DNA from: Rubrivirga sp. SAORIC476 | Lineage (GTDB): Bacteria > Bacteroidota > Rhodothermia > Rhodothermales > Rubricoccaceae | Assembly: GCF_002283555.1 (NCBI RefSeq) | Contig: NZ_MVOI01000006.1 | Location: 700,040-764,039, forward strand | Reading direction: 5' to 3' | Length of the DNA stretch: 64,000 nt | Shown: piece by piece, positions 11,868 to 50,100 of the stretch | Layout of the letters: every line of letters begins with the position of its first letter | Numbering within the stretch: position 1 is the stretch's first letter | Made by a program: the position numbers and the translations under genes | The notes under the pieces: generated by a model | The model's input: the letters and a program-made list of their open reading frames with translations, nothing else | Told to the model about the DNA's origin: nothing | Database searches by the model: none

Positions 11868-11878
11868 CCCCCCGCCCC

Positions 11879-14715: not shown

Positions 14716-14752
14716 CGACCCGGCCCGCGGCTCCTCGCTGACGGCCGGCACC

Positions 14753-14842
<90 letters not shown>

Positions 14843-15061
14843 ATAGGACGTCGAGGCAGTCCTCGGCGCCAGGGCTCACGTTCGGAGGGAACGTCGGCGA
14901 CCGGGGCGGGACTCTAGGGGAGTTCCTTCACGAATCCGGTGCAACCGAGTGGTCGCGGTGCCGTCGAGCGCTGCCATGGGCTCTCGATGGTCGAGGCGAC
15001 GGTATCCCATGAGCCCGTTCGCCTCGATGCGACGTTTCTCACTCGTACATGCTAGACTTTT

Positions 15062-24184: not shown

Positions 24185-24211
24185 TGTTCGCGACTGCCCT
24201 CCGTGATTCCC

Positions 24212-26971: not shown

Positions 26972-26992
26972 GCGGGGAGCCTGGCCGAAGCC

Positions 26993-27010
26993 CGAGGACG
27001 GTCGTCCTCG
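26993..27010 (+). promoter_or_regulatory. Hairpin between the TonB receptor gene and its partner
   Basis: CGAGGAC (26993-26999) and GTCCTCG (27004-27010) form a 7-bp perfect stem with a 4-nt loop in the 79-nt spacer. Confidence 0.4.
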
Positions 27011-27050
27011 CTGCCTCCGCCGCGCCCCCCTCCCCCCACACTCTGATCGG

Positions 27051-30317: not shown

Positions 30318-30322
30318 CCGCC

Positions 30323-31324
30323 ATGACACGCACGCTTCTCCTCCTGGCGGCCCTCGTCGCCGCGGCGCCTCTGAGCGCCCAGACCAAGACCGGCACCACG
30401 TTCGGGCAGTTCTTGCAGATCGAGCCCAGCGCCGCACTCGCGGCGCAGGGCAACGTCGGCGCGACCGCCCGGACCGACGTGATGTCGGCGTACTACAACC
30501 CTGGCGCGCTCGGCTTCCAGACCGGCTCCAACGCGGGCTTCTCGCACAGCTCGTGGCTGGCGGGCATCGACTACAACTATGCCGCGGTGGGGCTCAAGAT
30601 GGGCTCTGCGACGACGGTCGCCCTCTCGGTGTCGTCGCTGAGTTCGGGCGACATCGACGTGCGGACGGCCGAGCAGCCGCTGGGCACGGGCGAGCGCTAC
30701 TCCGTCGAGGATCTCGCCATCGGCATCGGCGTCGGGCGGCAGTTCACGGACCGCTTCGGCGCGGGGGCGACCGTCAAGTACGTCCAGGAGACGATCTGGC
30801 GCAGCTCCGCGCAGACGATCGCGCTGGACGCGGGCGTCATCTACGAGCTGCCCTTCCAAGCCGTCCTCGGGGCCAGCATCTCCAACTTCGGCGTCCCAGC
30901 TTCCTTCGACGGCACCGACCTGCGGATCCGGTACGACCAGGACCCAGACGTCTTCGGCGACAACGACAACCTCCCGGCCGCCCTGGTGACCGAGGAGTAC
31001 GCGCTGCCGGTGTTCTTCCGGGTCGGCATGAGCGTGCCCGTCCGCATGGGCGACAGCCAGCTCACGCTCGCCGCCGACGCCTACCAGCCGAGCGATAACA
31101 GCAACAGCATCAGCGTGGGCGGCGAGTGGACGTACGCCAACCTGATCTCGGCACGCGCGGGCTACCAGGACCTGTTCCTGGAGGACGGAGAGGGCGGCCT
31201 TCGCCTCGGTGGCGGCGTCGCCTACCGCGTGAGCGGCTTCGATCTCCAGTTCGACTACGCCTGGGCCGACCACGGCAGCCGCCTCGGCGCCACCCAGCGC
31301 TTCACCCTCGGCCTCGGCTTCTAG
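30323..31324 (+). CDS. PorV/PorQ-family outer-membrane protein
   Basis: 333 residues with a signal peptide ending PLSAQ. The N-terminal part contains ARTDVMSAYYNPGALGFQTG, typical of PorV/PorQ and FadL-like barrels, followed by alternating amphipathic strands to the end (LDFDYAW-type motif, C-terminal Phe). PorV and PorQ belong to T9SS, receiving sorted cargo at the outer membrane; other members are transport barrels. It begins 5 nt after the previous gene, so it is translationally close. A cargo-specific helper for the locus proteins is inferred. Confidence 0.82.
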   Translation: MTRTLLLLAALVAAAPLSAQTKTGTTFGQFLQIEPSAALAAQGNVGATARTDVMSAYYNPGALGFQTGSNAGFSHSSWLAGIDYNYAAVGLKMGSATTVALSVSSLSSGDIDVRTAEQPLGTGERYSVEDLAIGIGVGRQFTDRFGAGATVKYVQETIWRSSAQTIALDAGVIYELPFQAVLGASISNFGVPASFDGTDLRIRYDQDPDVFGDNDNLPAALVTEEYALPVFFRVGMSVPVRMGDSQLTLAADAYQPSDNSNSISVGGEWTYANLISARAGYQDLFLEDGEGGLRLGGGVAYRVSGFDLQFDYAWADHGSRLGATQRFTLGLGF

Positions 31325-34284: not shown

Positions 34285-36605
34285 TGCTGATTCGCCGTTC
34301 CGTACTCGCCCTCGCCTTGCTGACCGTCGCCGCGAGCGCCCAGCCTGCGCCGGCCTTCTACGCGGGCTACGACTGGGACGCCGAGGCGGCCCTCGTCGAG
34401 GACCTGCTCTCCCGGATGACGGTGGAGGAGAAGCTCGGCCAGCTGACGCAGTACACTGGCCAGTGGGCCGTGACCGGGCCCGCCGTCACGCAGGGCGGTG
34501 AGGACGTGATCCGCGCGGGCGGCGTGGGCTCGTTCCTCAACGTGTACGGCGCTGAGGCCACGCGCCGGGCGCAGGAGGTGGCCGTCGAAGAGTCCCGCCT
34601 CGGCATCCCGCTGATCATCGGCTACGACGTGGTGCACGGCTTCCGGACCGTCTTCCCGGTGCCGCTCGCGGAGACCGCCAGCTGGAACCTGGACGCCGCC
34701 GAGCTGGCCGCCCGTGTCGCCGCCCGCGAGGCCGCGGCGGCCGGCATCCACTGGACGTTCGCGCCGATGGTCGACATCGCCCGCGACGGACGCTGGGGCC
34801 GGATCGTGGAGGGCGCGGGCGAGGACCCGTTCCTGGGCAGCCGCTTCGCCGAGGCGCGCGTGCGCGGCTTCCAGGGCCACACGCTCACGGACCTCGCCTC
34901 GGACACGACGCTGGTCGCCACCGCCAAGCACTTCGCGGGCTACGGCTTCGCCGAGGGCGGGCGCGACTACAACACGGCCGACCTGAGCGAGCGGACGCTC
35001 CGCGAGGTCGTCCTGCCTCCGTTCCGTGCCGCCGTCGATGCCGGTGCGCAGACGCTGATGTCGGCCTTCAATGAGATCGGCGGCGTTCCCTCGACCGGCG
35101 ACCACGCGCTGTTCACCTACGTGCTCCGCGGTGAGTGGGGCTTCGACGGCTTCGTCGTGGCCGACTACACCGCCGTCCGCGAGCTGATGTGGCACGGCAT
35201 CGCCGCCGACAGCGCCGAGGCAGGGCGCCGCGCGCTGGTCGCGGGCGTCGACATGAGCATGGTGGACGGCATCTACGCCCGCAACCTGCCCGCGCTCGTC
35301 GAGAGCGGCGCGTTGCCGATGGACGTGATCGACGAGGCCGTCCGCCGCGTGCTCCGCGTCAAGCGCCGCGCCGGGCTGTTCGAGGACCCATACCGGTACT
35401 CCGACCCCGACAAGGAGGCCACCGTCCTGTTCTCGGACGCGCACCGCGCGATCGCCCGAGACGTGGCCCGCCAGTCGATGGTGCTCCTTAAGAACGACGC
35501 CCGCCCTGGAGCGGCGGGACCCGTGCTGCCGCTGGCCCGCGACCTCGGCTCGGTCGCTGTCATCGGCGCGCTCGCGGCCGACTCGGTCTCGGCGATGGGC
35601 TCGTGGGCGGGGGCGGGCCGCTGGCCCGAGACGACGCCCATCCTGCCCGCCCTCATCGAGGCGATGCCGAACACCGAGGTCCGCTACGCGCCCGGCTACC
35701 CCGTCGTGCCGCGTGGGCCGTTCCTCCAGATGGTCGAGACGGCGTTCTCGATGGACACCTCCGGCCACGACGAGGCCGTCCGCCTCGCGGAGACCTCGGA
35801 TGCGGTCGTGCTGGTGCTCGGCGAGCACCGCGAGCTGACCGGCGAGGCCGCCAGCCGGACCGACACGCGCCTGCCGGGCGCGCAGCTGGAACTGGCCCGG
35901 CGCGTCCTCGACGCGGCCGGGGACAAGCCGGTCGCGGTGCTGCTCACGAATGGTCGGCCGCTCGCGCTCACCGACCTCGACGCCATCGCGCCGTCGATCC
36001 TGGAGGTGTGGCACCTGGGCAGCGAGATGGGCCCCGCCGTCGCCGACGTGCTCCTCGGGTACCACAGCCCGTCGGGCAAGCTGCCGGTCACGTTCCCGCA
36101 CGTGACCGGCCAGGAGCCGCTCTACTACAACCATCGCCGCACCGGTCGCCCGCACGACGTGCCCGGCGCCAGCGACAAGTACGTCTCGCGCTACCTCGAC
36201 GCGCCCGTCGAGCCGCTCTACCCGTTCGGCCACGGCCTGAGCTACACCACGTTCGGGTACAGCGCGCCGCGTCTCAGCACCCCCCGCCTCGGGCCCGAGG
36301 CGGGCGAGGTCGTGGTCTCGGTGGACGTGACCAACACGGGCGAGCGTGTCGGCGTGGAGGTCGTCCAGCTCTACGTCTGGGACGAGGCCGCCAGCGTCAC
36401 GCGCCCCGTGCAGGAGCTGAAGGGCTTCGAGCGGATCGAGCTGGCCCCCGGCGAGACGCAGACCGTCGCGTTCTCCCTCACGCCCGACGACCTCCAGTTC
36501 TGGGGCGACGGCGAGTGGACCGTCGAGCCCGGCTGGTTCACGGTCAGGGTCGGCGGGTCGTCGGCCGAGACGCAGGCCGCCCGCTTCGAACTCGTCGCCG
36601 AGTAA
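34284..36605 (+). CDS. GH3 beta-glucosidase (BglX-like)
   Basis: 773-residue exported GH3 enzyme, signal peptide MLIRRSVLALALLTVAASAQ. Three GH3 domains: TIM barrel (KLGQLTQYTG, GYDVVHGFRTVFP, KHFAGYG, nucleophile Asp in GFVVADYTAV, about residue 290), alpha/beta sandwich carrying the acid/base region GEHRELTGEAASRTD (about 513-527), and a fibronectin-III-like C-terminal domain (VTNTGERVGVEVVQLYV). It removes beta-linked glucose from non-reducing ends in the periplasm. GH3 beta-1,2-glucosidases accompany GH144 enzymes in Bacteroides. TGATG overlap with the GH144 gene shows coupling. Confidence 0.92.
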   Translation: MLIRRSVLALALLTVAASAQPAPAFYAGYDWDAEAALVEDLLSRMTVEEKLGQLTQYTGQWAVTGPAVTQGGEDVIRAGGVGSFLNVYGAEATRRAQEVAVEESRLGIPLIIGYDVVHGFRTVFPVPLAETASWNLDAAELAARVAAREAAAAGIHWTFAPMVDIARDGRWGRIVEGAGEDPFLGSRFAEARVRGFQGHTLTDLASDTTLVATAKHFAGYGFAEGGRDYNTADLSERTLREVVLPPFRAAVDAGAQTLMSAFNEIGGVPSTGDHALFTYVLRGEWGFDGFVVADYTAVRELMWHGIAADSAEAGRRALVAGVDMSMVDGIYARNLPALVESGALPMDVIDEAVRRVLRVKRRAGLFEDPYRYSDPDKEATVLFSDAHRAIARDVARQSMVLLKNDARPGAAGPVLPLARDLGSVAVIGALAADSVSAMGSWAGAGRWPETTPILPALIEAMPNTEVRYAPGYPVVPRGPFLQMVETAFSMDTSGHDEAVRLAETSDAVVLVLGEHRELTGEAASRTDTRLPGAQLELARRVLDAAGDKPVAVLLTNGRPLALTDLDAIAPSILEVWHLGSEMGPAVADVLLGYHSPSGKLPVTFPHVTGQEPLYYNHRRTGRPHDVPGASDKYVSRYLDAPVEPLYPFGHGLSYTTFGYSAPRLSTPRLGPEAGEVVVSVDVTNTGERVGVEVVQLYVWDEAASVTRPVQELKGFERIELAPGETQTVAFSLTPDDLQFWGDGEWTVEPGWFTVRVGGSSAETQAARFELVAE

Positions 36606-36627: not shown

Positions 36628-36771
36628 ATGTCGACTGACGCCGCCAACACCTTGAAGAAGTGGGGGCAGGCCCTCGAACGCCTGCTCCGCGGCCTCCTCG
36701 GCAAGGACGACGAGCCGCAGCCCGTGCCGGTGCGCGTCCGCCGGTTCACCCTGCCCGGGATGGACTCATGA
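36628..36771 (+). CDS. 47-residue hypothetical protein
   Basis: Short ORF from an ATG 22 nt after GH3. N-terminal amphipathic helix (NTLKKWGQALERLLRGLLGK, about 7-26), then an acidic/Pro-rich tail and a basic patch (VPVRVRRF). Its TGA overlaps the next ATG (ATGA at 36768-36771), indicating translational coupling to the sulfatase frame. No family recognised. A real small protein is plausible; a remnant of an upstream reading frame is the alternative. Confidence 0.45.
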   Translation: MSTDAANTLKKWGQALERLLRGLLGKDDEPQPVPVRVRRFTLPGMDS

Positions 36772-38303
36772 AGCGTGCCCTCTGGATCCTGCTCGCGGTG
36801 CTGTCCATTCCCTTCGTGGGCAACGCCCTCGTGGACCGGGTGAAGCGAGCCCTCGTGGTCGCGCTGGCGGTGCTCGCCTCGGCGTCCGCGTGGGCGCAGC
36901 CCCGCATCGCACAGCGACCCGCCCCGCGAAACGTGGTCGTCATCCTGACCGACGACCACCGCTACGACTTCATGGGCTTCCACCCGGACGCGCCCGTCTT
37001 CCTGCGGACGCCCAACCTGGACCGCATGGCGGTCGGGGGCGCCCACCTCGCCAACGCGTTCGTCACCACGAGCCTCTGCTCGCCGAGCCGCGCGAGCATC
37101 CTGACCGGCCAGTACGCCCACACGCACGGCGTCGTGGACAACACGAGCCCGATCCCGGAGGGGACGCGCTTCTTCCCCGAGGACCTCCAGGAAGCGGGCT
37201 ACCAGACGGCGTTCATCGGCAAGTGGCACATGGGCGAGGACGACGACCGCCCGCGCGACGGCTTCGACCGCTGGGTCAGCTTCCGCGGGCAGGGCGCCTA
37301 CACGAACCCGCTCCTCAACGTCGACGGCACCCAGATCCCGCACGACGGCTACACGACCGACATCCTGACCGACTACGCGGTCGACTGGCTCCGCGAGGGC
37401 CGCGACGGCGACCAGCCGTTCTTCCTGGAGCTGTCCCACAAGGCCGTCCACGCCGAGTTCGAGCCCGCGCCGCGCCACACCGGCGCTTACGACGACGTCA
37501 CCATCCCGTACCCGCCGACGATGTGGCTCACCGAGCGCAACTACCTCGGCAAGCCCCACTGGGTCCGCCAGCAGCGCGGCTCCTGGCACGGCGTCGACTT
37601 CATGTTCCACGGCGACCTCGGACCGGGCATGGACGGGTTCGACAACTTCTACCGCCGCTACGCCTCCACGCTGCTCGCCGCCGACGAGTCGGTCGGCCGC
37701 GTGCTCGACACGCTCGAAGAGCTGGGGCTGGACGAGACCACACTCGTCCTCTACCTCGGCGACAACGGCTTCCTGCTCGGCGAGCACGGCCTGATCGACA
37801 AGCGGAACGCCTACGAGGAGTCGATCCGGATCCCGATGCTCGCCTGGGCGCCCGGCTGGATCGAGCCCGGCACGACCGTCGACGGCCTCGTCCGCAACCT
37901 CGACATCGCGCCGACGATCCTGGAACTGACCGGCACGCGGTCGGCCATCGACATGGACGGCACCTCGTTCCTCGACCTGCTCCGTGGCGGCGACGGCGGC
38001 GCGGGCGACCGCGAGTTCCTCTACGAGTACTACTGGGAATACGCCTTCCCCCACACGCCGACGACCTTCGCGCTGCGCGGCGACCAGTACAAGTTCATCA
38101 CCTACCACGGCGTCTGGGACACCGAGGAGCTGTACGACATCGTCGCCGACCCGGAGGAGCGGACCAACCTCGTGGAGGCGCTGCCGCAGGTAGCCGCCCA
38201 GATGCGCAGCCGCCTCTACGACCGCCTCGCGGCCGACGACGCCATGCGGGTCCCGATGCGCCGCGGCTCCTGGAAGGCAGGCGAGCGGCTGGTGTACGAC
38301 TGA
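36768..38303 (+). CDS. Family S1 sulfatase
   Basis: Exported formylglycine-dependent sulfatase, 511 residues from the ATG at 36768. Motifs: metal-binding VILTDDHRYDFMGF (about 60-73), the modification motif CSPSRASILTG with Cys104 (becomes formylglycine), GKWHMGEDDDRPRDGFDRW, LYLGDNGFLLGEHGLIDKRN, and C-terminal LYDIVADPEERTNL. The N terminus is odd: two hydrophobic stretches (MKRALWILLAVLSIPFVG, then VKRALVVALAVLASASAWAQ). The second is a classic signal peptide, and a GTG at 36840 would start it exactly, so 36840 is a strong alternative start (487 residues). Removes sulfate esters from sugars. TGATG overlap with GH2. Confidence 0.88.
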   Translation: MKRALWILLAVLSIPFVGNALVDRVKRALVVALAVLASASAWAQPRIAQRPAPRNVVVILTDDHRYDFMGFHPDAPVFLRTPNLDRMAVGGAHLANAFVTTSLCSPSRASILTGQYAHTHGVVDNTSPIPEGTRFFPEDLQEAGYQTAFIGKWHMGEDDDRPRDGFDRWVSFRGQGAYTNPLLNVDGTQIPHDGYTTDILTDYAVDWLREGRDGDQPFFLELSHKAVHAEFEPAPRHTGAYDDVTIPYPPTMWLTERNYLGKPHWVRQQRGSWHGVDFMFHGDLGPGMDGFDNFYRRYASTLLAADESVGRVLDTLEELGLDETTLVLYLGDNGFLLGEHGLIDKRNAYEESIRIPMLAWAPGWIEPGTTVDGLVRNLDIAPTILELTGTRSAIDMDGTSFLDLLRGGDGGAGDREFLYEYYWEYAFPHTPTTFALRGDQYKFITYHGVWDTEELYDIVADPEERTNLVEALPQVAAQMRSRLYDRLAADDAMRVPMRRGSWKAGERLVYD

Positions 38304-40942
38304 TGCGAACCGGGACGCCCGCACCGACGATGAGGTCTCCCGCGAGGGGGTACCGCAGTCCGGCTCTGCTCGGCCTGCGAGCGGTGGCGCTTCTCCTCTG
38401 CTCGGGTCTCGTCCTGCCCGCGCTCGCCCAGCGGACGCAGGTCTCGGTCAACGACGGCTGGCGCTTCTGGAACGACGACTCCCCCGGCGCCGACGCCCCG
38501 GCCTTCGACGACGCGAACTGGGAGCAGGTCGACCTCCCGCACACCTGGAACGCCGAGGACGCCTTCGACGACGTGCCCGGCTACCGACGCGGCATCGGCT
38601 GGTACCGGCGTACCCTCCACCTCGGTGCCGAGACGGGCAGCCCCGGCCGTCGCCGGTTCCTGCACGTCGAGGGCGCCAATCAGGTCGCCGAGGTGTGGGT
38701 GAACGGGCAGCCCGTCGGCGGCCACGTGGGTGGCTACACCGCGTTCACGCTCGACGTGACCGACGCTGTACGGCCCGGCGACAACACCGTCGCCGTGCGC
38801 GTGGACAACCGCCACGACGCCGACATCCCGCCGCTCGATGCCGACTTTACGTTCTACGGGGGGCTCTACCGCGACGTGTGGCTGGTCGAGACCGACGCGG
38901 TCCACCTGAGCACCGCGTGGGGCGCCTCGGGCGTCCGGCTGGACACGCCGGCGCTGGCCGACGGCGACACGCGGGTCCGCGCCCGCGCCGGGGTGGTCAA
39001 CGACGGCCTCGAGGCGGTCCAGGCGATGGTGACGCACACGCTCCGCGACCCGGCCGGTGGCGTCGTAGCGGTGTGGCAGCAGACCGCGGCAGTCGGGGCG
39101 GGGGAGACGGTCGAGGTCGAGGCGTGGAGCGAGGCGATCTCCGACCCGGCGCTCTACACGCCCGAGACACCCGCCGTCTACCGCGTCGAGACGCGGGTCA
39201 CGGCCGGGCGGCACCAGGACGCGGTCACGAGTCCGCTTGGCTTCCGCTGGGTCGCCGCCGACGGCGACGGGTTCATGCTCAACGGCGTCCGTCGCCAGCT
39301 CCACGGCACGAACCGCCACCAGGACTGGGCGGGCCTCGGCAACGCGCTCTCCGACGACCAGCACCGGCGCGACGTGCAGATCGTGGAGGAGACCGGCTTC
39401 GACTTCCTCCGCCTGGCCCACTACCCGCAGGACGAGGCCGTGCTCGCCGAGGCCGACCGGCTGGGGCTGCTCGTCTGGGAGGAGATCCCGGTCGTCAACA
39501 CGATCACGCAATCGGAGGCCTTCGCCGCGAACGCCGAGCGGCGACTGCGTGAGATGGTCCGCCAGCATTACAACCACCCGTCCGTCGTGATGTGGGGGTA
39601 CATGAACGAGATCCTGCTGCGAATCCCCGAGGACGCGCCGCCGGATTACGTCGACGACGTGCGCACCCTCGCCGAGCGGCTGGACGCGGTCGCCCAGGCC
39701 GAGGACGCCACGCGCCTCACCGCGATGGCGGTTTCGTTCAACGAGGCCGCGTACCGCATCGCCGACGCCGCCGACGTGTTCGCCTTCAACCTCTACTTCG
39801 GCTGGTACCACGACACGTTCGCCGACCTCGGCGTCTTCCTCGACAGCCTCCACACGGCGCACCCGGACGTGCCGCTGATGCTGAGCGAGTACGGCGCAGG
39901 CTCCGACGAGCGGATCCACAGCGACCGGCCGGTCCGCTTCGACTTCTCGACCGAGCACGCCGAGGACTTCCACCGGGCGTCCCTGCGGACCGTCCTCGAC
40001 CGCCCGTGGATGGTCGGCAGTGCGGTCTGGAACCAGTTCGACTTCGGCTCGGCCGGGCGCCAGGACACGAAGGACGGCATCAACCAGAAAGGGCTCTTCT
40101 TCTTCGACCGGACGCCGAAGGACGTGGCGCACCTGTACCGGGCGATGCTCCGCGACGATCTCGTGATCCATGTCGAGCACGACCACCCGCACCGGTCCGG
40201 GCCGCACCGCCAGCGCGTGCGGGTGTTTTCGAACGCCGACGAGGTGGGGCTGACAGTCGGCACGAAGATCATGGGACCCGCCGTGCCGGAGGATGGGCTC
40301 GTGGTGTTCGAGGTCGACCTCGTGCCAGGGGAGAACCCGCTCCAGGCAGTCGGCCTGTCGGGGGATCAGGCCGTGTTCCACGCCACCACGCTCCACTACG
40401 CCGACCTCGGCGCGTTCTTCGAGGGGACCGCCGACGCCCCGCCCGCCGTCGCCCTCAACGTCGGCGCCGACCACTCGTTCGCCGACCCGGCGGGCCTCGT
40501 CTACGTCGCCGAGGCGGACTGGCCCGGCCCGATGCCGGTGGGGGAGGCCCGCCGCACGCACCACCGCATCGACGGGACCGAGGAGGACGCCCGCTTCCAG
40601 TCCTTCCGCGAGATGCCTGCGGTCTGGTCGCTGCCGATGCTGCCCGCCGGGACCTACGACCTCACGCTCGGTGCCGCCCGCGCGGGGGGCGAGCCGGGGA
40701 CCGTTACGGTACGGCTCGGGGATGCCGCGTGGGGCCTCCAGGCCGAGCACGCCGCGATGGCGCGGAACCACGTCCCGCTCGGCCCCGCCCTCGGGATGCT
40801 CCGCCTCGACCTCGCCGATCCCTGGTGGGCCGTCGAGAGCCGCGTCCGGTTCACCCTCGCCCAGCCGACCGCGCCCGTCCTCGCCGTCACCGGAGACGGT
40901 GGGCGTCCGGTCCTGTCCACCCTCGTCCTCCGCCGCCTCTAG
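38303..40942 (+). CDS. GH2-family beta-glycosidase
   Basis: 879 residues, exported (signal around 22-42 after a long basic N-region). GH2 architecture: jelly-roll (VNDGWRFWNDD, VEGANQVAEVWVNGQPVGGH, FYGGLYRDVWLV), Ig-like domain, TIM barrel with LHGTNRHQDWAGLG, acid/base Glu436 in MWGYMNEI and nucleophile Glu529 in LSEYGAGSD, plus extra C-terminal beta domains (about 620-879). Family activities include beta-galactosidase, beta-glucuronidase, beta-mannosidase and beta-glucosidase; which one applies here is unknown. The dispersed palindrome (38621-38632) lies inside the coding region at HLGAETGSPGR. Starts on the sulfatase stop codon. Confidence 0.88.
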   Translation: MRTGTPAPTMRSPARGYRSPALLGLRAVALLLCSGLVLPALAQRTQVSVNDGWRFWNDDSPGADAPAFDDANWEQVDLPHTWNAEDAFDDVPGYRRGIGWYRRTLHLGAETGSPGRRRFLHVEGANQVAEVWVNGQPVGGHVGGYTAFTLDVTDAVRPGDNTVAVRVDNRHDADIPPLDADFTFYGGLYRDVWLVETDAVHLSTAWGASGVRLDTPALADGDTRVRARAGVVNDGLEAVQAMVTHTLRDPAGGVVAVWQQTAAVGAGETVEVEAWSEAISDPALYTPETPAVYRVETRVTAGRHQDAVTSPLGFRWVAADGDGFMLNGVRRQLHGTNRHQDWAGLGNALSDDQHRRDVQIVEETGFDFLRLAHYPQDEAVLAEADRLGLLVWEEIPVVNTITQSEAFAANAERRLREMVRQHYNHPSVVMWGYMNEILLRIPEDAPPDYVDDVRTLAERLDAVAQAEDATRLTAMAVSFNEAAYRIADAADVFAFNLYFGWYHDTFADLGVFLDSLHTAHPDVPLMLSEYGAGSDERIHSDRPVRFDFSTEHAEDFHRASLRTVLDRPWMVGSAVWNQFDFGSAGRQDTKDGINQKGLFFFDRTPKDVAHLYRAMLRDDLVIHVEHDHPHRSGPHRQRVRVFSNADEVGLTVGTKIMGPAVPEDGLVVFEVDLVPGENPLQAVGLSGDQAVFHATTLHYADLGAFFEGTADAPPAVALNVGADHSFADPAGLVYVAEADWPGPMPVGEARRTHHRIDGTEEDARFQSFREMPAVWSLPMLPAGTYDLTLGAARAGGEPGTVTVRLGDAAWGLQAEHAAMARNHVPLGPALGMLRLDLADPWWAVESRVRFTLAQPTAPVLAVTGDGGRPVLSTLVLRRL

Positions 40943-40944
40943 TC

Positions 40945-43092
40945 ATGGCCCGACTCCCTCTGCTCCTCGCCCTGCTGGCCGTCGCCGCGTGCGCGCCGTC
41001 CGCCCCGTTGGCTCCGCCCCCCTCGGTCGCCGAGGTGGAGGGCGTCGCCTACACGATGTCGGCCGAGGAGGAGGCCTTCCTCGACACGCTCCAAGCGCGC
41101 ACCTTCCGCTGGTTCTGGGAGACGACCCCGGAGAACGGCCTCACGCACGACCGCTACCCGAGCCGCGACTTCTCCTCGGTCGCTGCCATCGGCTTCGCGC
41201 TCCCGGCCTACGGCATCGGCGCCGAGCGCGGCTTCGTGACGCGCGCCGCCGCCGCCGAGCGGACGCTGACGACGCTCCGCACCCTCTACACCGCGCCCCA
41301 GGGACCCGAGCAGGTCGGCACGGCCGGCCACCGCGGCTACTTCTACCACTTCCTGGAGTACGACGACGCGACGCGCTTCCGCAACGTCGAGTTGTCTACC
41401 ATCGACACGGCGCTGCTCATGGCGGGCGTCCTGTTCTCGCGCGAGTACTTCGACGGGACCGCCGAGGCGGAGCAGGACATCCGGGCCTATGCCGACTCGC
41501 TCTACCAGCGCGTCGAGTGGCCGTGGTTCCGCAAGCCCGGCGACACGCGCCTCACGATGGGCTGGCACCCGGAAACCGACTTCCTGCGCGCCGACTGGCG
41601 GGGCTACAACGAGGCGATGATCCTCTACCTCCTCGGCCTCGGTTCCCCGACGCACCCCCTCGACGCGTCCGTCTGGCCGACCTGGACGAGCACCTACGAG
41701 TGGGAAGACTTCTACGGCTACGAGCACGTCAACTTCACGCCGCTCTTCGGCCACCAGTACAGCCACATGTTCGTCGACTTCCGCGGCATCCAGGACCAGT
41801 GGATGCGCGACCGATCGGCCGAGGAGGGCGAGCCCATCGACTACTTCGAGAACAGCCGCCGGGCGACGCTCAGCCAGCAGGCCTATGCCATCGACAACCC
41901 GGGCGGCTGGGCCGACTACTCGGCCGAGATTTGGGGCCTCACGGCCAGCGACGGTCCCTCTGACGCCGCCGTCGAGGTGAACGGCGAGGAGCGCCAGTTC
42001 CACACGTACTGGGCGCGCGGCGCCAGCACGGACCACGTCAACGACGACGGCACGCTCACGCCGACGGCCGCGGGCGGCTCGATCCCGTTCGCGCCCGAGA
42101 TCACGATCCCGACGCTGATGGCGATGGCCGAGCGCTACCCCGCGCTCTGGACCGACGACTACGGCTTCCGCGACGCCGTCAACCCGACGTTCACCTTCGA
42201 GGACGTCCAGATCAAGCGCAACTCGGAGGTCACGCCGTACGGCTGGGTGGACCACGACTACCTCGGCATCGACCAGGGCCCGATCCTGATCATGGCCGAG
42301 AACTACCGGACGGGGCTCGTCTGGGAGACGCTCAAGCGCAGCCCCTACCTCGTTCGCGGCCTGCAGCGCGCCGGCTTCGAGGGTGGCTGGCTCGACGGCG
42401 CCCGCGCCGAAGCCGTCGAGGCCCTCGACCTGCCCCCCGCCCGGGTGGCCGAGGGCCCTGGCGCCGACCGCCTGCTGGTGGTGGTCCTGGGCTCCTCGAC
42501 GGCCGAGGGCACTGGCCCGACGCACCGCGACAGCACCTGGGTGAATCGCTTCCGCACCCACCTGGAGGGCGTCGACGCGCGGTTCGACGTGCTCAACCTC
42601 GCCCGCGGCGGGTATGCGACGTTCCACCTGATGCCCGGCGGGACCGTCGCTCCTGACCACATCCGGAACGCGCCCGACCCGGCGCGCAACATCGACGCGG
42701 CGCTCGCCCGCAATCCGGACGCCATCGTCATCAACCTGCCGTCCAACGACGCCGCCTACGGGGTCGATGCGGCGACGCAGATGTCCAACTTCGACGCCAT
42801 GATCGCGAAGGCCGACGCCGCCGGGGTCCCGGTCTGGATCACCACGACGCAGCCGCGCGATTTTTCTGACCCCGAGCAGGTCGCGGTCCAGCGCGCCGTC
42901 CGCGACCAGATCCGGGCCCGCTACGGCGACCGCGCCATCGACTTCTGGACCGGCTTCGAGGACACCGACGGCGGCCAGGACGCCGATTGGGGGTCGGGCG
43001 ACAACGTCCACTACAACGACGCCGCCCACCGCGTCTTCTTCGAGCGCGTCCGCGACGCCGGCGTCGCCGCCACCGTCCTCGCCGGCAACTAG
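40945..43092 (+). CDS. GH144-type glucanase fused to an SGNH esterase, lipoprotein
   Basis: 715 residues. Lipoprotein signal (MARLPLLLALLAVAACAPS, Cys16). Residues about 30-490: glycoamylase-like GH144-type domain (FRWFWETTPENGLTHDRYPS, GYFYHFLEYD, ELSTIDTALLMAGVL, YNEAMILYLLGLGSPTHPL, YFENSRRATL, LGIDQGPILIMAENYRTG). Residues about 505-715: SGNH/GDSL hydrolase with block I GSSTAEG (Ser nucleophile), block II NLARGGYA, block III NLPSNDA and block V DNVHYNDAAH (Asp/His). All four blocks look intact, so both domains may be active. It would cut glucan and remove ester substituents at the membrane (inference). Follows GH2 by 2 nt. Confidence 0.82.
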   Translation: MARLPLLLALLAVAACAPSAPLAPPPSVAEVEGVAYTMSAEEEAFLDTLQARTFRWFWETTPENGLTHDRYPSRDFSSVAAIGFALPAYGIGAERGFVTRAAAAERTLTTLRTLYTAPQGPEQVGTAGHRGYFYHFLEYDDATRFRNVELSTIDTALLMAGVLFSREYFDGTAEAEQDIRAYADSLYQRVEWPWFRKPGDTRLTMGWHPETDFLRADWRGYNEAMILYLLGLGSPTHPLDASVWPTWTSTYEWEDFYGYEHVNFTPLFGHQYSHMFVDFRGIQDQWMRDRSAEEGEPIDYFENSRRATLSQQAYAIDNPGGWADYSAEIWGLTASDGPSDAAVEVNGEERQFHTYWARGASTDHVNDDGTLTPTAAGGSIPFAPEITIPTLMAMAERYPALWTDDYGFRDAVNPTFTFEDVQIKRNSEVTPYGWVDHDYLGIDQGPILIMAENYRTGLVWETLKRSPYLVRGLQRAGFEGGWLDGARAEAVEALDLPPARVAEGPGADRLLVVVLGSSTAEGTGPTHRDSTWVNRFRTHLEGVDARFDVLNLARGGYATFHLMPGGTVAPDHIRNAPDPARNIDAALARNPDAIVINLPSNDAAYGVDAATQMSNFDAMIAKADAAGVPVWITTTQPRDFSDPEQVAVQRAVRDQIRARYGDRAIDFWTGFEDTDGGQDADWGSGDNVHYNDAAHRVFFERVRDAGVAATVLAGN

Positions 43093-43140: not shown

Positions 43141-44418
43141 ATGACCGTCCGCCTCCTCCTGCTCCTCGGCCTCGGCGTCGCGCTCGGCCCCCTCGCGGGC
43201 TGCGCCGAGGCGGACGCGGACGAGGTGGTGCTGGAGTTCTGGGCGATGGGCGCCGAGGGAGAGAAGGTGCAGCCGCTCATCGAGCGGTTCGAGGCCGAGC
43301 ACCCCGGTATCCGCGTCGAGGTCCAGCAGCAGCCCTGGACCTCCGTCCACGAGAAGCTGCTGACGGCGTTCGCGGGCCGCTCCACGCCCGACGTGTCGCA
43401 GTTCGGCAACACGTGGGTCGCCGAGATGGAGGCGCTCGGCGCGCTGGAGGACCTCACGCCCTACGTTCGCCGGTCGGCCGTGGTGGACGAGGCGGACTAC
43501 TTCTCCGGCGTATGGGACACCAACGTGATCGACGGCCGGCTGTGGGGCGTCCCGTGGTACGTCGACACGCGGCTGCTCTTCTACCGGACCGACCTGTTCG
43601 CCCAGGCGGGCTACGACGCGATGCCGGACACCTGGGACGGGTGGGTCGAGGCCATGCACGCCGTGAAGGCGGTCCAGCCGGAGGGCGGCTACCCGATCCT
43701 GCTCCCCGTCAACGAGTTCGAGCCGCCGCTCATCCTCGGCCTCAACACCGCCGACGTGCTCCGCGACGGCGACCGCTACGGCAACTTCCGCAGCGACGGC
43801 TTCCGGCGCGCGTTCACGTTCTACGTCGACCTCTTCCGCGAGGGGCTGGCGCCGGCGACCTCGGGGACCGAGATCTCGAACCTGTACCAGGAGATCGACC
43901 GCGGGCGCTTCGCGAGCACCATCACTGGCCCCTGGAACATCGGCGAGTTCCAGCGCCGCCTGACCGAGCACCCGGACGACTGGGGGACGGCGCCCATTCC
44001 CGGCCCGGACCCGGGCACGCCGGGCGTCTCGGTCGCGGGCGGGGCCAGCCTGGTCATCTTCGAGCGGTCGCCCCACAAGGCCGAGGCGTGGCTGCTGGTC
44101 GAGTTCCTCTCGCGGCCCGACATCCAGGCCGAGTTCAACGCGCTCACGGGCGACCTCCCGCCGCGGGCGTCGGTCTGGGAGACGACCGGCCTCGCCTCCG
44201 ATCCCTACGCGCGGGCCTTCTTCGAGCAACTGGCGCACGTCCGCCCGACCCCCAAGATCCCGGAGCAGGAGCGCATCGCGCAGACCATCCGCCAGTACGC
44301 CGAGGCGGCGGCGCGCGGCCAGCGCACCATCGACGAAGCGCTCGCCGCGCTGGACGCGGACGTGGACCGGGCCCTCGAAAAGCGGCGCTGGCTGCTGGAC
44401 CGCGAGGTGGGGCGATGA
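43141..44418 (+). CDS. ABC sugar transporter solute-binding lipoprotein
   Basis: 425-residue family-1 extracellular solute-binding protein. Lipoprotein signal ends GPLAGC (Cys21). Typical features: VLEFWAMGAEGEKVQPLIERF, PDVSQFGNTWVAEMEALGAL, GVPWYVDTRLLFYRTDLF, GRFASTITGPWNIGEF and VAGGASLVIFERSPHKAEAW. It binds oligosaccharides in the periplasm and delivers them to the two permeases encoded next. The stop overlaps the malF-like start (ATGA at 44415-44418). Given the neighbouring GH144 and GH94 genes, a beta-1,2-gluco-oligosaccharide ligand is inferred, as for the Listeria binding protein of the equivalent operon. Confidence 0.92.
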   Translation: MTVRLLLLLGLGVALGPLAGCAEADADEVVLEFWAMGAEGEKVQPLIERFEAEHPGIRVEVQQQPWTSVHEKLLTAFAGRSTPDVSQFGNTWVAEMEALGALEDLTPYVRRSAVVDEADYFSGVWDTNVIDGRLWGVPWYVDTRLLFYRTDLFAQAGYDAMPDTWDGWVEAMHAVKAVQPEGGYPILLPVNEFEPPLILGLNTADVLRDGDRYGNFRSDGFRRAFTFYVDLFREGLAPATSGTEISNLYQEIDRGRFASTITGPWNIGEFQRRLTEHPDDWGTAPIPGPDPGTPGVSVAGGASLVIFERSPHKAEAWLLVEFLSRPDIQAEFNALTGDLPPRASVWETTGLASDPYARAFFEQLAHVRPTPKIPEQERIAQTIRQYAEAAARGQRTIDEALAALDADVDRALEKRRWLLDREVGR

Positions 44419-45395
44419 GCACCGTCACCCATACCGACGCCGACCTCGCGGCGACCGTCGGCCCGCCCGCTGTGCCCACCTCGGCACCGAGGCGGGTCCG
44501 GTGGCGTCCGCGGATGCCGCAGACGGCCGCCAGCCGGGCGGCGGCGCTGTTCATCGCGCCGTCGCTGCTGGTGATCGGGCTGTTCTTCTTCCTGCCGGTC
44601 GCCGCCGCGCTCGCGCTGAGCCTGACCGACTTCGACCTCTACGCCCTCGCCGACCCCAGCACGGCGCGGTTCGTGGGGCTGAAGAACTACGCGGAACTGG
44701 CGCAGTCGGCTGAGTTCTGGCAGGCGCTCCGGAATACGCTCTACTTCGTCGTCGTCGGCGGCCCGTTGTCGGTGGCCGTGTCGCTGGGCACCGCGCTGCT
44801 GGTTAGCTCGAAGCTGACGCGCTGGAAGGGGCTCTGGCGGACGGTCTTCTTCGCGCCCGTCGTGACCACGCTCGTCGCCGTCGCGGTCGTCTGGCGGTAC
44901 CTCTACAACGGCCAGTACGGGCTGCTCAACGCGGCGCTGGGCGCGGTCGGCATTGAGGGCGTCGACTGGCTGGGCGACCCGGCCTGGGCGATGCCGGCCA
45001 TCATCGGGCTGGCCGTGTGGAAGAACTTCGGGTACAACATGATCATCTTCGTGGCCGGGCTCGCGGGCGTCCCCGAGGAACTCTACGAGGCCGCGCGGAT
45101 CGACGGGGCCGGGTGGTGGGCGCAGTTCCGCCACGTAACGCTCCCAGAGCTCGCGCCGACGTTCCTGTTCGTCGGCGTGATCACCATGATCGGCTACTTC
45201 CAGCTCTTCGCCGAGCCCTACGTGATGACCGAGGGCGGCCCGCTCAGGAGCACCGTCAGCGTGGTCTACCTGATGTACGAGGAGGGCTTCAAGTGGTGGA
45301 ATCTGGGCTACGCCTCCGCCGTCGCCTTCGTCCTGTTCGCGATGATGCTGGTCGGGACGCTCGTGCAGCTTCGCCTGCAGCGAGGGGACCCATGA
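44415..45395 (+). CDS. ABC sugar permease, MalF-type
   Basis: 326-residue inner-membrane permease with six membrane helices (first at about 42-63: FIAPSLLVIGLFFFLPVAAA) and the EAA loop EELYEAARIDGAGWWAQFRH that docks the ATPase. The cytoplasmic N-terminal tail (1-35) is unusually Arg/Pro-rich because the dispersed palindrome (44479-44492) is translated there as TSAPRR. Coupled by ATGA overlap to the binding protein and to a mini-ORF before malG. No ATPase gene is in the locus, so a shared MsmX/MsmK-type ATPase elsewhere is expected. Confidence 0.93.
   Translation: MSTVTHTDADLAATVGPPAVPTSAPRRVRWRPRMPQTAASRAAALFIAPSLLVIGLFFFLPVAAALALSLTDFDLYALADPSTARFVGLKNYAELAQSAEFWQALRNTLYFVVVGGPLSVAVSLGTALLVSSKLTRWKGLWRTVFFAPVVTTLVAVAVVWRYLYNGQYGLLNAALGAVGIEGVDWLGDPAWAMPAIIGLAVWKNFGYNMIIFVAGLAGVPEELYEAARIDGAGWWAQFRHVTLPELAPTFLFVGVITMIGYFQLFAEPYVMTEGGPLRSTVSVVYLMYEEGFKWWNLGYASAVAFVLFAMMLVGTLVQLRLQRGDP
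44479..44492. repeat. Dispersed palindrome inside the malF-like coding region
   Basis: CCTCGGCACCGAGG, perfect outer arms with CA/CC centre, followed by CGGGT as in the intergenic copies. It is translated in the disordered N-terminal tail of the permease. Confidence 0.55.
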
Positions 45396-45451
45396 GCGCC
45401 ACCGACATCGCCCGCCTCGGCACCGAGGTGGAGGCACCCGCCACCCGATGA
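45392..45451 (+). CDS. 19-codon bridging mini-ORF containing a palindrome copy
   Basis: ATG at 45392 overlaps the malF-like stop (ATGA), and its own TGA at 45449-45451 overlaps the malG-like ATG (ATGA again). The product would be 19 residues (MSATDIARLGTEVEAPATR). Palindrome CCTCGGCACCGAGG lies at 45415-45428. It looks like an insertion of about 56 bp into a former malF-malG ATGA overlap that kept translational coupling. Probably a coupling leader, not a functional protein. Confidence 0.4.
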   Translation: MSATDIARLGTEVEAPATR

Positions 45452-46269
45452 ACCGACGCCTCACCACGACGCTCCTCCACGTCGCGCTCCTCGGGGTCGC
45501 GGCCGTGACGGCGTTCCCGCTGCTGTGGATGCTGTCGGCGTCGTTCATGCCGAGCGGCGAGGCCAGCACGTTTCCGCCGCCGCTGCTGCCGTCGACGCCG
45601 ACGTTGGAGCACTACCAGGCCCTGTTCGCGCGCGCCGACATGGGCCGCTACCTCCTCAACAGCGCGCTGGTGGCGACGGCCGTCACCGTCGTCTCGCTGT
45701 TCATCAACTCGCTGGCCGGGTACGCCTTCGCCAAGCTCCGCTTCCGGGGGCGGGAGAAGCTGTTCCGCTCGCTGCTGGCCGCGCTCGTGATCCCGGCGCA
45801 GGTGGCGATGCTGCCGCTGTTTCTGGAGATGCGCGCGCTCGGGCTGGTCAACTCGTACGCGGGCGTCATCGTCCCGGCGGCGGCGAGCATCTTCGGCATC
45901 TTTCTCATTCGCCAGTTCGCGCTCTCGATCCCGGAGAGCCTGCTGGAGGCGGCGCGCATCGACGGGGCGACCGAGTTCGAGATCTACTGGCGCATCGCGA
46001 TGCCTCTCATGCGCCCCGTCCTCGTGACGCTGGCCCTGTTCACCTTCATGGGGTCGTGGAACGACTTCATGTGGCCTCTGATCGTCCTCACCGACGACGA
46101 CCTGTACACCCTGCCCGTCGCGCTGGCGACGCTCACGCGCGAGCGGGTGCAGGACAACGAGTTCATGATGGCGGGCGCCGTCGTGACCACGCTGCCGGTG
46201 CTCGTCGTCTTCCTCGCCCTCCAGCGCCACTACGTCCGCGGCATCATGCTCGGCGGCGTGAAGGGGTAG
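45448..46269 (+). CDS. ABC sugar permease, MalG-type
   Basis: 273-residue second permease of the importer: six membrane helices (first at about 9-30, HVALLGVAAVTAFPLLWMLS), the proline-rich MalG-type loop PPPLLPSTPTLEHYQALFA, and the EAA motif PESLLEAARIDGATEFEIYW before helix 5. It pairs with the MalF-like permease to move oligosaccharides into the cytoplasm. Followed by an intercistronic hairpin and the GH94 gene, which would process the imported sugars. Confidence 0.93.
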   Translation: MNRRLTTTLLHVALLGVAAVTAFPLLWMLSASFMPSGEASTFPPPLLPSTPTLEHYQALFARADMGRYLLNSALVATAVTVVSLFINSLAGYAFAKLRFRGREKLFRSLLAALVIPAQVAMLPLFLEMRALGLVNSYAGVIVPAAASIFGIFLIRQFALSIPESLLEAARIDGATEFEIYWRIAMPLMRPVLVTLALFTFMGSWNDFMWPLIVLTDDDLYTLPVALATLTRERVQDNEFMMAGAVVTTLPVLVVFLALQRHYVRGIMLGGVKG

Positions 46270-46344: not shown

Positions 46345-49300
46345 GTGGAACTCGCAGTCTCCACCCGCTTCACCACCGCGGACCTCGCGCGGCCCGTCAG
46401 TCCGATGCTCCTCCTCGGCGGAGGCGGGCTGACGGCGGCCCTGTCGGCCGCGGGCACGGGCGTCGTCACCTCCGGCGGCTCCGACCTGACCCGCTGGCGA
46501 GCCGACCGGGTCGAGGACGCCGACGGACTGGCCCTCTTCCTCCGCGACCTCGACACGGGCCACGTCTGGACCGCCGGGTGGCGGCCGGGCGACGAGGCCT
46601 ACGAGGCGCGCTTCGGCGTGGGGACGGTCGAGATCGTCCGCCAGGATGCGGGCGTCGAGACGCGGCTGTGCCTCGCCGTGGCGCCTGAGGGCGCGCTCGT
46701 GGGGCGCCTCCAGCTTCGCTCGCTGGACGGCCGGGCGCGGCGGATCGAGGTGACGACGCTGGCAGAGGTCGTTCTCCACGACCGCTCGGCAGATGCCTCG
46801 CACCCGGCGTTCTCGAAGCTGTTCGTGCAGACGGAGCGCCTCGACGATCGGCCGGTGCTCCTCGCCAAGCGTCGCCCGCGGACGCCCGAGGACCCCTCGG
46901 TGTGGCTCGGCCACTGGCTCGACGACGCGGCCGCGGCGGTGTCGTGGGAGACCGACCGGCTCCGGTGTGTCGGCCGCGGGCGGCGGCGGACCGACCCGGC
47001 GATGATGGACGCCTCCGGCGACCTCGGGGGCACGGTGGGGGCGGTGCTCGACCCCGTCGTCGCGCTGCGGACGGTGGTCGCGGTCTCCGCCGAGGGCGTC
47101 GCGACGCGCGCGTTCGGGCTGGCTGGTGGTGCGTCCCGCGAGGCCGTCTCCGCCCACGCCGGCGCGCTGGGCGACCTCGGGGCCGTCGACCTGGCCCTCC
47201 GGGCGGCCTCGGACGCCGAGCAGGCCCGCCGCGACTGCCTCGGCCTGGACGATGCCGCGGCCGACGCCGCCCAGTCGCTCATCGGGCCGTTGCTGATGGG
47301 CGACCCCAGCCTCTGGGCGCCCGCCGCGCTCCGCGCGGCTGCGACCGACGGCGACGCGCTCCCCATCGACGGTGCCGGGCCGCTGGTGGTCGTCCGCGTG
47401 CGGACCGAGGCGGGCGTGGGGGCGGTCCGCCACCTCGCCGCGTGGCAACGCTACTGGGCCGACCTCGGGCTGCCCGTCCGCCTCCTCGCCGTCGCCGACG
47501 ACCCCGACGCGCTCGCCGAGGAAGGCGGCCCGGTCGTCGGCGCGGACCGGGAGGCGCAGGCGGCCCGGCTCGCCGACGTGTGGGCGGACGACGCGCTGCC
47601 GGTTGCGTCCGCCAAGCCGGCCATGCTGGCCGAGGGCACCCGCCCCGCTGTCCCCACGGGCGACCTCGCCCTGGACGACGCCGACCTCCGCGAGTTCAAC
47701 GGCACCGGGGGCTTCTCGGCCGACGGCACCGAGTACGTGATGCACCTCCGGCCGGGGACCGACGGGCGGCTGTCGCTCCCGCCGCTGCCGTGGGCCAACG
47801 TGATCGCCAACGAGCACGGCGGCTTCCTCGTCACCGAGCGCGGCGCGGCGTCGACGTGGAGCGCCAACAGCCGCGAGAACCGCGTCACGCCGTGGGGCAA
47901 CGACCCCGTCGAAGACCCCGGCGAGGCGCTCCACCTGCAGGACCTCGACGCCGGAACGCTGTGGTCGCCCACGGGCGGGCCGACCCCCGCCGCCGCGCCG
48001 GTCGAGGTGCGCCACGGCTTCGGCTACTCGACCTGGCGAACGGTGGTCGAGGGCATCGCGCAGCATACGACGATGTCGATCGCGCCCGACGCGAGCGCGA
48101 AGCTGACCGTCCTCCGCCTCACCAACGTCGGAGACACGCCGCGCCGACTCGCCGTGACGGCGAGCGCGCAGCTGACGCTCGGTCCGCGCGAGACGCCGCG
48201 GGACGTCGTGACCGCCCGCGTCGGGGAGGTCCTGACGGCCCGTAACACAGCCCGGGGCGAGTTCTCGGACCGCGTTGCCGTCGCCCGCGCCGTGGCGCCG
48301 GAGGGCGCCGAGGTCTCGCTCACCGCCGACCGGGCCGCCTTCCTCGGCCGGTTCGGGACGCCCGAGGCGCCTCGCGCACTGGTGGCAGGCGGGGCGTTGG
48401 ACGGGGCCGTCGGCCCCGGCCTCGACGCGGCCGTGCACCGGGTCGCGCTGACGCTCGCCCCTGGCGAAACCCAGGAGGTCGCGTTCGTGCTCGGCGAGGC
48501 CGCCGACCCGACCGAGGCGGATGCGCTGGCCGCCCGGTTCGCCCATCTCGGTGCCGTCGCCGACGCCATCGCCGAGACGCGCGCCTTCTGGACGGAGACG
48601 ACGGGCGCGCTCCAGATCCAGACGCCCGACCCGGCGCTCGACCTGATGGTCAACGGCTGGCTGCTCTACCAGAACCTCTCCTGCCGCCTCTGGGGGCGGA
48701 CGGCGTTCTACCAGAGCGGCGGCGCGTACGGCTACCGCGACCAACTCCAGGACACGTCGGCGCTCGTCTACGCGCGGCCGGACCTCACGCGCGCCCAGAT
48801 CCTCCGCAACGCCGCCCACCAGTTCGAGGAGGGCGACGTGCTCCACTGGTGGCACCCGCCGCTGTCGAAGGGCATCCGCACGCGCTTCGCCGACGACCTG
48901 CTCTGGCTCCCGCTCCTCGCCTCGGCCTACGCCGAGACGACCGGCGACGACGGCGTGTTCGACGAGGAGGTCCGCTTCCTCACCGCCCCGCTGCTCGAAG
49001 AGGGCCAGGACGAGGTCTTCCTCCAGCCCACCGAGGCGGGCACCTCGGCGAGCGTCTACGAGCACGCCGCGCGCACCATCGACCGGTCGCTGGCGGTCGG
49101 CGTCCACGGCCTGCCGCTGATGGGGACCGGCGACTGGAACGACGGCATGAACCGGGTCGGCCGCGAGGGACGGGGAGAGAGCGTCTGGATGGGCTTCTTC
49201 CTGGCCTCCGCGCTCGACGCCTTCCTGCCGCACGTCGAGGCCCGCGGCGACGCCGACCGCGCCGCGCGCTACCGCCAGCACCGCGCCCACCTCCAGTCTG

Positions 49301-50100
49301 CGCTCAACGCCGACGGCTGGGACGGCGACTGGTACCGCCGCGCGTTCTACGACAACGGCGCCGTGATGGGCTCGGCCGAGAGCGACGAGTGCCAGATCGA
49401 CGCGCTCGCGCAGGCCTGGGCCGTCCTCTCGGGTGTCGCGCCCGCCGACCGGGCCGCCCAGGCGCTCGACGCGATGGAGGCGCGGCTCGTGGACGAGGAC
49501 GCGGGCATCCTGCGCCTGCTCGCGCCCGCCTTCGACGTGACGCCCAACGACCCGGGGTACATCAAGGGCTACGTGCCGGGCGTCCGCGAGAACGGCGGCC
49601 AGTACACGCACGCGGCGCTGTGGGCCGTCCGTGCGCTCGCCGAGGCGGGGCGCTGCGAGCGCGCGGCGCCGTTGCTGGGGATGCTCTCGCCCGTGCGCCA
49701 CGGCGACTCGCCCGAGGCCGTCGCCGTCTACAAGACCGAGCCCTACGTGATCGCGGCCGACGTGTACGGCGTCGCCCCCCACGTCGGCCGCGGGGGGTGG
49801 ACGTGGTACACCGGCTCGGCCGGGTGGATGCTACGTGTGGCTGTCGAGTCGGTGCTCGGCTTCGGCCTCGACCGCGGCGAGGCGATCACCCTCGCCCCCT
49901 GCATCCCGGCCGACTGGCCCGGCTTCGCGATCCGCTACCGCCTGCCCGACGGATCGGGGACGGTCTACACGATCACCGTCCAGCGCGGCGAGACGCCCGG
50001 CCTCACCCTCGACGGCGCGACCCTGCCCGTCCCGCACACGGGATGGCGGGTGCCGCTGGTCCGCGACGGCGCCGTGCACGAGGTCCAGTTGACGATCTGA
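46345..50100 (+). CDS. Large GH94 phosphorylase, candidate 1,2-beta-oligoglucan phosphorylase
   Basis: 1,251 residues, GTG start, no signal peptide or membrane helix, so cytoplasmic. C-terminal two thirds show the GH94 fold: YGYRDQLQDTSALVYARPDL, FEEGDVLHWWHPPLSKGIRT, the catalytic-acid region LMGTGDWNDGMNRVG (about 927-941), YIKGYVPGVRENGGQYTHAA and GRGGWTWYTGSAGWMLRVAV (phosphate/sugar binding). It lacks the GT84 and membrane parts of cyclic beta-1,2-glucan synthase. Size suits the 1,2-beta-oligoglucan phosphorylase branch (about 1,100 residues) rather than 800-residue cellobiose phosphorylases. Would yield glucose 1-phosphate. Linkage specificity is inferred from context. Confidence 0.88.
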   Translation: MELAVSTRFTTADLARPVSPMLLLGGGGLTAALSAAGTGVVTSGGSDLTRWRADRVEDADGLALFLRDLDTGHVWTAGWRPGDEAYEARFGVGTVEIVRQDAGVETRLCLAVAPEGALVGRLQLRSLDGRARRIEVTTLAEVVLHDRSADASHPAFSKLFVQTERLDDRPVLLAKRRPRTPEDPSVWLGHWLDDAAAAVSWETDRLRCVGRGRRRTDPAMMDASGDLGGTVGAVLDPVVALRTVVAVSAEGVATRAFGLAGGASREAVSAHAGALGDLGAVDLALRAASDAEQARRDCLGLDDAAADAAQSLIGPLLMGDPSLWAPAALRAAATDGDALPIDGAGPLVVVRVRTEAGVGAVRHLAAWQRYWADLGLPVRLLAVADDPDALAEEGGPVVGADREAQAARLADVWADDALPVASAKPAMLAEGTRPAVPTGDLALDDADLREFNGTGGFSADGTEYVMHLRPGTDGRLSLPPLPWANVIANEHGGFLVTERGAASTWSANSRENRVTPWGNDPVEDPGEALHLQDLDAGTLWSPTGGPTPAAAPVEVRHGFGYSTWRTVVEGIAQHTTMSIAPDASAKLTVLRLTNVGDTPRRLAVTASAQLTLGPRETPRDVVTARVGEVLTARNTARGEFSDRVAVARAVAPEGAEVSLTADRAAFLGRFGTPEAPRALVAGGALDGAVGPGLDAAVHRVALTLAPGETQEVAFVLGEAADPTEADALAARFAHLGAVADAIAETRAFWTETTGALQIQTPDPALDLMVNGWLLYQNLSCRLWGRTAFYQSGGAYGYRDQLQDTSALVYARPDLTRAQILRNAAHQFEEGDVLHWWHPPLSKGIRTRFADDLLWLPLLASAYAETTGDDGVFDEEVRFLTAPLLEEGQDEVFLQPTEAGTSASVYEHAARTIDRSLAVGVHGLPLMGTGDWNDGMNRVGREGRGESVWMGFFLASALDAFLPHVEARGDADRAARYRQHRAHLQSALNADGWDGDWYRRAFYDNGAVMGSAESDECQIDALAQAWAVLSGVAPADRAAQALDAMEARLVDEDAGILRLLAPAFDVTPNDPGYIKGYVPGVRENGGQYTHAALWAVRALAEAGRCERAAPLLGMLSPVRHGDSPEAVAVYKTEPYVIAADVYGVAPHVGRGGWTWYTGSAGWMLRVAVESVLGFGLDRGEAITLAPCIPADWPGFAIRYRLPDGSGTVYTITVQRGETPGLTLDGATLPVPHTGWRVPLVRDGAVHEVQLTI

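Follow-up and report, generated by a model that had tools for sequence, protein, structure and literature searches.

A lipoprotein of Rubrivirga joins a GH144 glucanase to an SGNH hydrolase domain within a predicted beta-1,2-glucan utilization locus

Beta-1,2-glucans have been described mostly from symbionts and pathogens, in which they are periplasmic or secreted and succinyl and acetyl substituents are frequent. The cyclic forms are often decorated with succinyl and/or acetyl groups (PMC11842490), and acetyl and succinyl are also found on the OPGs of Dickeya (PMC4726272). Among the enzymes that act on these chains, XcSGL (XCC2207, PDB 8XUL), a member of GH144, is a proven endo-beta-1,2-glucanase that is active on beta-1,2-glucans only (PMC12102758), and the XcSGL paper defines the beta-1,2-glucanase clan by the residues E239, F286, and Y367. 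Marine loci in which GH144, GH3, and a sulfatase occur together have been reported (Lapebie et al. 2019, PMC6499787; Maribacter, PMC8072126); an unknown sulfated polysaccharide was inferred by Lapebie et al., and the excerpts of these two reports mention no esterase fusion. Glycosidases and esterases do share one chain within utilization loci in the multicatalytic GH-CE enzymes of Bacteroidota (e.g., CE15-GH8, PMC8417218), but these belong to other families with other substrates, and we found none with GH144. A literature search, with thin coverage of subscription journals, returned neither a GH144-SGNH fusion nor a described esterase that removes succinyl or acetyl groups from beta-1,2-glucans.

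An earlier note on the 64,000-nucleotide stretch of Rubrivirga DNA analyzed here (the window) had proposed that a GH144-type glucanase and an SGNH domain are fused in one lipoprotein. We confirmed this layout: positions 40945..43092 (+) hold a single open frame of 715 amino acids with no internal stop, predicted to encode a surface-anchored GH144 glucanase joined to an intact-looking SGNH domain (GH144b-SGNH). A short hydrophobic leader with a lipobox (VAAC, residues 13 to 16, with the lipidation candidate Cys16) precedes the (alpha/alpha)6 glucanase domain (approximately residues 41 to 486, 41065..42402 (+)), which was delimited by PF10091, the match to XcSGL, and residue mapping. A fast-evolving linker, recognized by codon comparison (approximately residues 487 to 507, 42403..42465 (+)), leads to the SGNH hydrolase domain (approximately residues 508 to 712, 42466..43080 (+)), which was delimited by PF13472, an alignment of 24 homologues, and fold matches. 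Both Pfam matches lie well above the curated cutoffs (PF10091 at residues 217 to 467, E 1e-76; PF13472, GDSL-like SGNH, at residues 514 to 697, E 3.8e-16), and an NCBIfam search of the fused protein returned no family. The coordinates given by the note hold, and the family motifs that it quoted for both halves were all located in the translation (ELSTIDTALL at 149, LGIDQGPI at ∼440, GSSTAEG at 516, GGYA at 555, and PSND at 599, with the Asp/His block as GDNVH at 685). Both enzyme families and this type of locus are already known; what is new is that the two families are combined.

The glucanase half is like XcSGL across the whole catalytic domain, aligning over residues 47 to 484 (E 2.8e-148) with 225 of the 430 aligned residues (52%) identical. 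The clan residues E239, F286, and Y367 map to E223, F268, and Y355, and these, together with E149, D154, and I442, show no variation across the nine fused proteins compared, that is, the window protein and those of eight other distinct loci. Based on this identity and on the conserved clan residues, GH144 membership is as firm as sequence allows, and glucanase activity is predicted. Membership in GH192 to GH194 or in GH189 was ruled out, since XcSGL and CpSGL (5GZK, E 2e-37) match and PgSGL3 (8XUK) does not. D154 is the candidate general base (compare E142 of CpSGL) and its counterpart in 4GL3 is the E of IVES, in an alignment that does not contain CpSGL itself. The deposited 8XUL chain shows Q at the position of E239, presumably an inactive mutant for the ligand complex. 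Behind the barrel, XcSGL has a disordered C-terminal tail alone, whereas the window protein has its SGNH domain there. BDI_3064 (PDB 5Z06), a GH144 protein with an N-terminal domain, has no SGNH domain, and its layout is nearer to that of the second GH144 protein of the window, GH144a, than to that of the fused protein.

The conserved blocks and the modeled fold of the C-terminal domain place it in the SGNH superfamily. Its key residues are S518, G556, N601, D686, and H689; the block I Ser, block III Asn, and block V Asp and His (S518, N601, D686, and H689) do not vary among the nine fused proteins, and across the 24 aligned homologues the block I Ser and block V His are invariant and the block III Asn and block V Asp nearly so. 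The GGYA motif is indeed present, with G555-G556 as block II and G556 as the oxyanion-hole glycine, but this part of the pattern is not general: GG is found in six of the nine fused proteins, and SA (RSAY for RGGY), with Ala replacing the oxyanion-hole glycine, in the other three, all of which come from one family (f3) of the order. An AlphaFold2 model of the domain, built on a five-sequence alignment and of moderate confidence (pLDDT 63.7, pTM 0.68), gave 17 Foldseek matches at E<=0.001, among them the carbohydrate esterase PbeAcXE (7TOH, 1.3e-05) as well as thioesterases and lipases; the model of the whole protein was too poor for use (pLDDT 43.7, shallow alignment). In VIA-align, the domain model reached Z 14.9 with an rmsd of 3.0 over 176 residues to 1YZF, and Z values of ∼14 to 15 were obtained alike for acylhydrolases and acetylxylan esterases (1YZF, Axe2, and PbeAcXE). 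A 12-sequence SGNH profile reaches SGNH esterases in the PDB (E 2e-09), and its match to 7TOG, which we take to be a CE20 enzyme, extends over only part of the domain and scores no better than those to other SGNH proteins (E 4.4e-08). The acetylxylan esterases of the CE20/Axe2 type (PDB 7TOG/7TOH, 4JKO) thus have the SGNH fold in common with the window domain (Z ∼14 to the model) and, for 7TOG, a remote profile similarity, but they share only 14 to 19% sequence identity with it, have xylan substrates, and are tied with acylhydrolases that do not act on carbohydrates. The structural comparison with carbohydrate esterases suggested by the earlier note therefore recovers the fold and yields a tie, which means that a CE family is not assignable from these data. 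A preference for succinyl, a substituent that the note had named, is not supported by these data; the closest structural matches include acetyl(xylan) esterases, tied with unrelated acylhydrolases.

Proteins with this pair of domains occur at eight other distinct loci from independent assemblies, which rules out chance, a split gene, an assembly error, or a frameshift as the origin of the fusion. Further fused copies were found in close relatives, including the Rubrivirga MAG SW42617_bin_3 (L031, apparently the same contig as L092, G423:C684), and in G408 (L098). In named genomes, a pattern search turned up a single close relative, from a Rubrivirga MAG, along with three remote SGNH proteins from Companilactobacillus; no GH144-SGNH fusion was found in the plasmid records searched. 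In one further genome (G407), the gene looks broken, with SGNH and GH144 pieces in different short frames (L097, 4759-5360), and may be either a pseudogene or a sequencing error. The fusion is present in several families of one order. In phylogenetic trees, the SGNH domains of the nine distinct fused proteins group together as a single clade (support 86/97). The glucanase domains of the fused proteins are interleaved with unfused ones, with three changes on the tree; a single ancient fusion that was later lost in some lineages fits this pattern, and other histories are also compatible with it. Codon comparisons with L031 and L090 gave dN/dS values of 0.27 to 0.31 for the SGNH domain (0.08 to 0.17 in closer pairs), 0.25 to 0.26 for the GH144 domain, and ∼0.7 for the linker, which reaches 0.68 to 0.86 against the four closest fused proteins. 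Since the SGNH domain is, like the glucanase domain, under purifying selection while the linker drifts, it is kept as a functional unit.

The fused gene stands in a long run of genes on the same strand, which we read as a marine-type operon for sugar degradation. Upstream lie genes for a TonB-dependent receptor-like protein (24203..26971 (+)), whose orthologues precede GH144a in sister loci; a large conserved protein of 1123 amino acids without a Pfam match (26946..30317 (+)), which always comes next; a PorV-like outer-membrane protein, putative and named from sequence features (30320..31324 (+)), in a conserved place; GH144a (31456..34284 (+)); a GH3 beta-glucosidase-type enzyme (34284..36605 (+)); an S1-type sulfatase with the formylglycine motif CSPSR (36762..38303 (+)); and a GH2 enzyme with an approximate start codon (38324..40942 (+)), for which the closest models are beta-galactosidase and beta-glucuronidase. 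Downstream follow an ABC sugar-binding lipoprotein (43141..44418 (+)), ABC permease 1 (44457..45395 (+), start approximate), ABC permease 2 (45448..46269 (+)), conserved with its counterpart in sister loci, and a GH94 phosphorylase-type enzyme (46345..50100 (+)); the enzymes and the transporter were assigned by Pfam, except permease 2. With two GH144 genes, GH3, GH94, and a sugar ABC transporter, the locus has the predicted makeup of a beta-1,2-glucan utilization locus. It differs from the marine GH144-sulfatase loci in having TonB and PorV-like proteins and an ABC transporter in place of SusCD (PMC6499787, PMC8072126).

As the earlier note had stated, the paralog GH144a has no SGNH domain; it consists of an N-terminal region, the GH144 domain, and a weak T9SS tail, and it aligns with BDI_3064 beyond the barrel. 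This partly alignable N-terminal region and the T9SS tail make a division of labor plausible between GH144a and GH144b, the latter a lipoprotein closest to the endo-acting XcSGL, by predicted location and perhaps by mode of attack. Part of the 1123-amino-acid protein resembles the N-terminal region of GH144a, and this protein, at 54 to 66% identity, lies beside the PorV-like gene in all wholly read sister loci of other families. Among solved structures, the nearest relative of the GH94 enzyme is the GH94 part of the cyclic beta-1,2-glucan synthase NdvB (E 1e-235); cellobiose and chitobiose phosphorylases are less close. The enzyme has ∼400 extra N-terminal residues.

Across sister loci, we observed a conserved core, running from the TonB receptor, the PorV-like protein, and GH144a through an optional set of GH3, sulfatase, and GH2 to GH144b with or without SGNH, the ABC transporter, and GH94. 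Three loci (L037, L040, and L041) have the core and the fusion, with no GH3, sulfatase, or GH2 detected; L085 and L086 have the core and GH3 but lack both SGNH and sulfatase; in L087, GH3, sulfatase, and GH2 are present and SGNH is missing; and L035 has GH3, sulfatase, and SGNH, with no GH2 detected. This separate presence and absence suggests that SGNH and the sulfatase are independent, optional modules for removing decorations. Orthologous loci free of SGNH are L085 to L089 and L101. Unfused orthologues of the glucanase stop a few to ∼20 residues past GFxGGWL, where the linker of the window protein starts, and the existence of such glucanases in the same type of locus indicates that beta-1,2-glucan can in itself be used without deacylation. 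Judging by the sulfatase gene nearby, the glucan may be sulfated as well. The esterase module is the acyl counterpart of the sulfatase in marine GH144 loci, and the genus of the window has both. In a Rubrivirga relative (L031, ∼2960-3940), a formylglycine-generating-enzyme-like protein is encoded between the sulfatase and GH2; in the genome of the window, genes of this type lie only away from the sulfatase locus.

We consider it somewhat probable that the fused protein is a two-activity lipoprotein that deacylates O-acylated beta-1,2-glucan and then cuts it, an account in which we infer the catalysis, the ester, the type of acyl group, and the order of the two steps. The GH144 domain would cut the glucan endolytically, and the SGNH domain, through its Ser-Asp-His triad, would hydrolyze O-acyl esters on the same glucan, most likely acetyl and possibly succinyl. 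Bulky esters would hinder the glucanase cleft, the esterase, being tethered, would strip them from the chain at the site of cutting, and the deacylated products would suit the downstream transporter and the GH94 and GH3 enzymes. Deacylation that enables chain cutting is, in our view, the best explanation for the fusion, and an ester-removing domain fused to the glucanase suggests in turn that the natural glucan eaten carries acid groups to be stripped. The fusion could also be read as pointing to a natural marine beta-1,2-glucan with both sulfate and O-acyl esters, deacylated by a protein that founds a new carbohydrate-esterase family and is coupled to the glucanase, but this is a tentative and rather doubtful extension.

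The ester might instead sit elsewhere on a composite sulfated marine glycan, for instance on side sugars handled by GH2, and not on the beta-1,2-glucan backbone. The sulfatase and GH2 of the window locus would fit such a glycan, as would the unknown sulfated polysaccharide to which the published marine GH144-sulfatase loci point (PMC6499787), and some GH144-linked glycosidases, such as Bxy_22780, are inactive on beta-1,2-glucan oligosaccharides (PMC11739564); yet the fusion also stands in the three loci where neither sulfatase nor GH2 was detected and where two GH144 enzymes, GH94, and the transporter are the matching parts, so that we regard this placement of the ester as unlikely. Even less credible is that the domain acts as an acyltransferase or as a general hydrolase of lipids or aryl esters and that fusion to GH144 merely provides a shared anchor. 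Acyltransferase activity is indeed known for SGNH domains of other systems (PMC12148441), and the thioesterases and lipases among the fold matches leave room for a general hydrolase, but the locus has no membrane acyl-donor partner, the AT3 genes of the window genome lie elsewhere, and across several families the glucanase that bears SGNH is the same one, with the orientation unchanged. That the domain is no longer catalytic and acts as a binding module or spacer, as the RSAY replacement in the three f3-family proteins might indicate, seems very improbable, given that Ser, Asn, Asp, and His are unchanged throughout the nine fused proteins and that selection acts on the domain as on an enzyme. 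If the deacylation proposal holds, a glucanase with a built-in, optional esterase would be a direct enzymatic handle on acylated beta-1,2-glucan. The fusion points to a glucan that is acylated and in some hosts also sulfated, and loci with and without the SGNH domain make the deacylation idea testable.

Outside these loci, the SGNH family has a broader distribution. A search for the domain in 395 genomes of the phylum found 20 positive ones; within the order of the window the domain is fused to GH144, and outside it the domain forms a separate, mostly secreted protein that frequently carries CBM30, PKD, Ig, or T9SS domains. Proteins with PF10091, a profile that also detects the transglycosylase part of cyclic glucan synthases, occur in 19 of the 20 SGNH-positive genomes and in 117 of the 375 others (p 9e-9; p 6e-6 at the genus level; kinship uncorrected). 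Since the control family GH16 is equally full (20/20 versus 216/375), a saccharolytic life explains part of this co-occurrence. Among GH16-positive genomes, with the fused ones left out, GH144 is found in 14/15 versus 108/216 (Fisher p 9e-4, kinship uncorrected), a weak hint that the SGNH family tracks beta-1,2-glucan genome-wide. As general markers of beta-1,2-glucan loci, however, the SGNH relatives were ruled out, the unfused ones having no linkage to GH144 within 12 to 19 kb and mixed neighbors; these neighbors and the other accessory domains (CBM30, PKD, and Ig) indicate that the family is not specific to beta-1,2-glucan.

Elsewhere in the window genome (L105, G000:C3:547000-566900), a 2910-amino-acid protein (4803-13535 (-)) with PF10091-like and GH94 domains has the layout of a cyclic beta-1,2-glucan synthase, and another GH144 gene (13666-15141 (-)) directly adjoins it. 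In G422, G424, G340, G414, and G415, too, a GH144 gene is found a few kilobases from a giant frame that matches PF10091 weakly. Judged from such predicted genes, the host may both synthesize and consume beta-1,2-glucan. Near one unfused SGNH relative, a secreted glycerophosphodiester phosphodiesterase with lectin domains is encoded (L038, 5822-9661); phosphoglycerol is another known substituent of periplasmic glucans.
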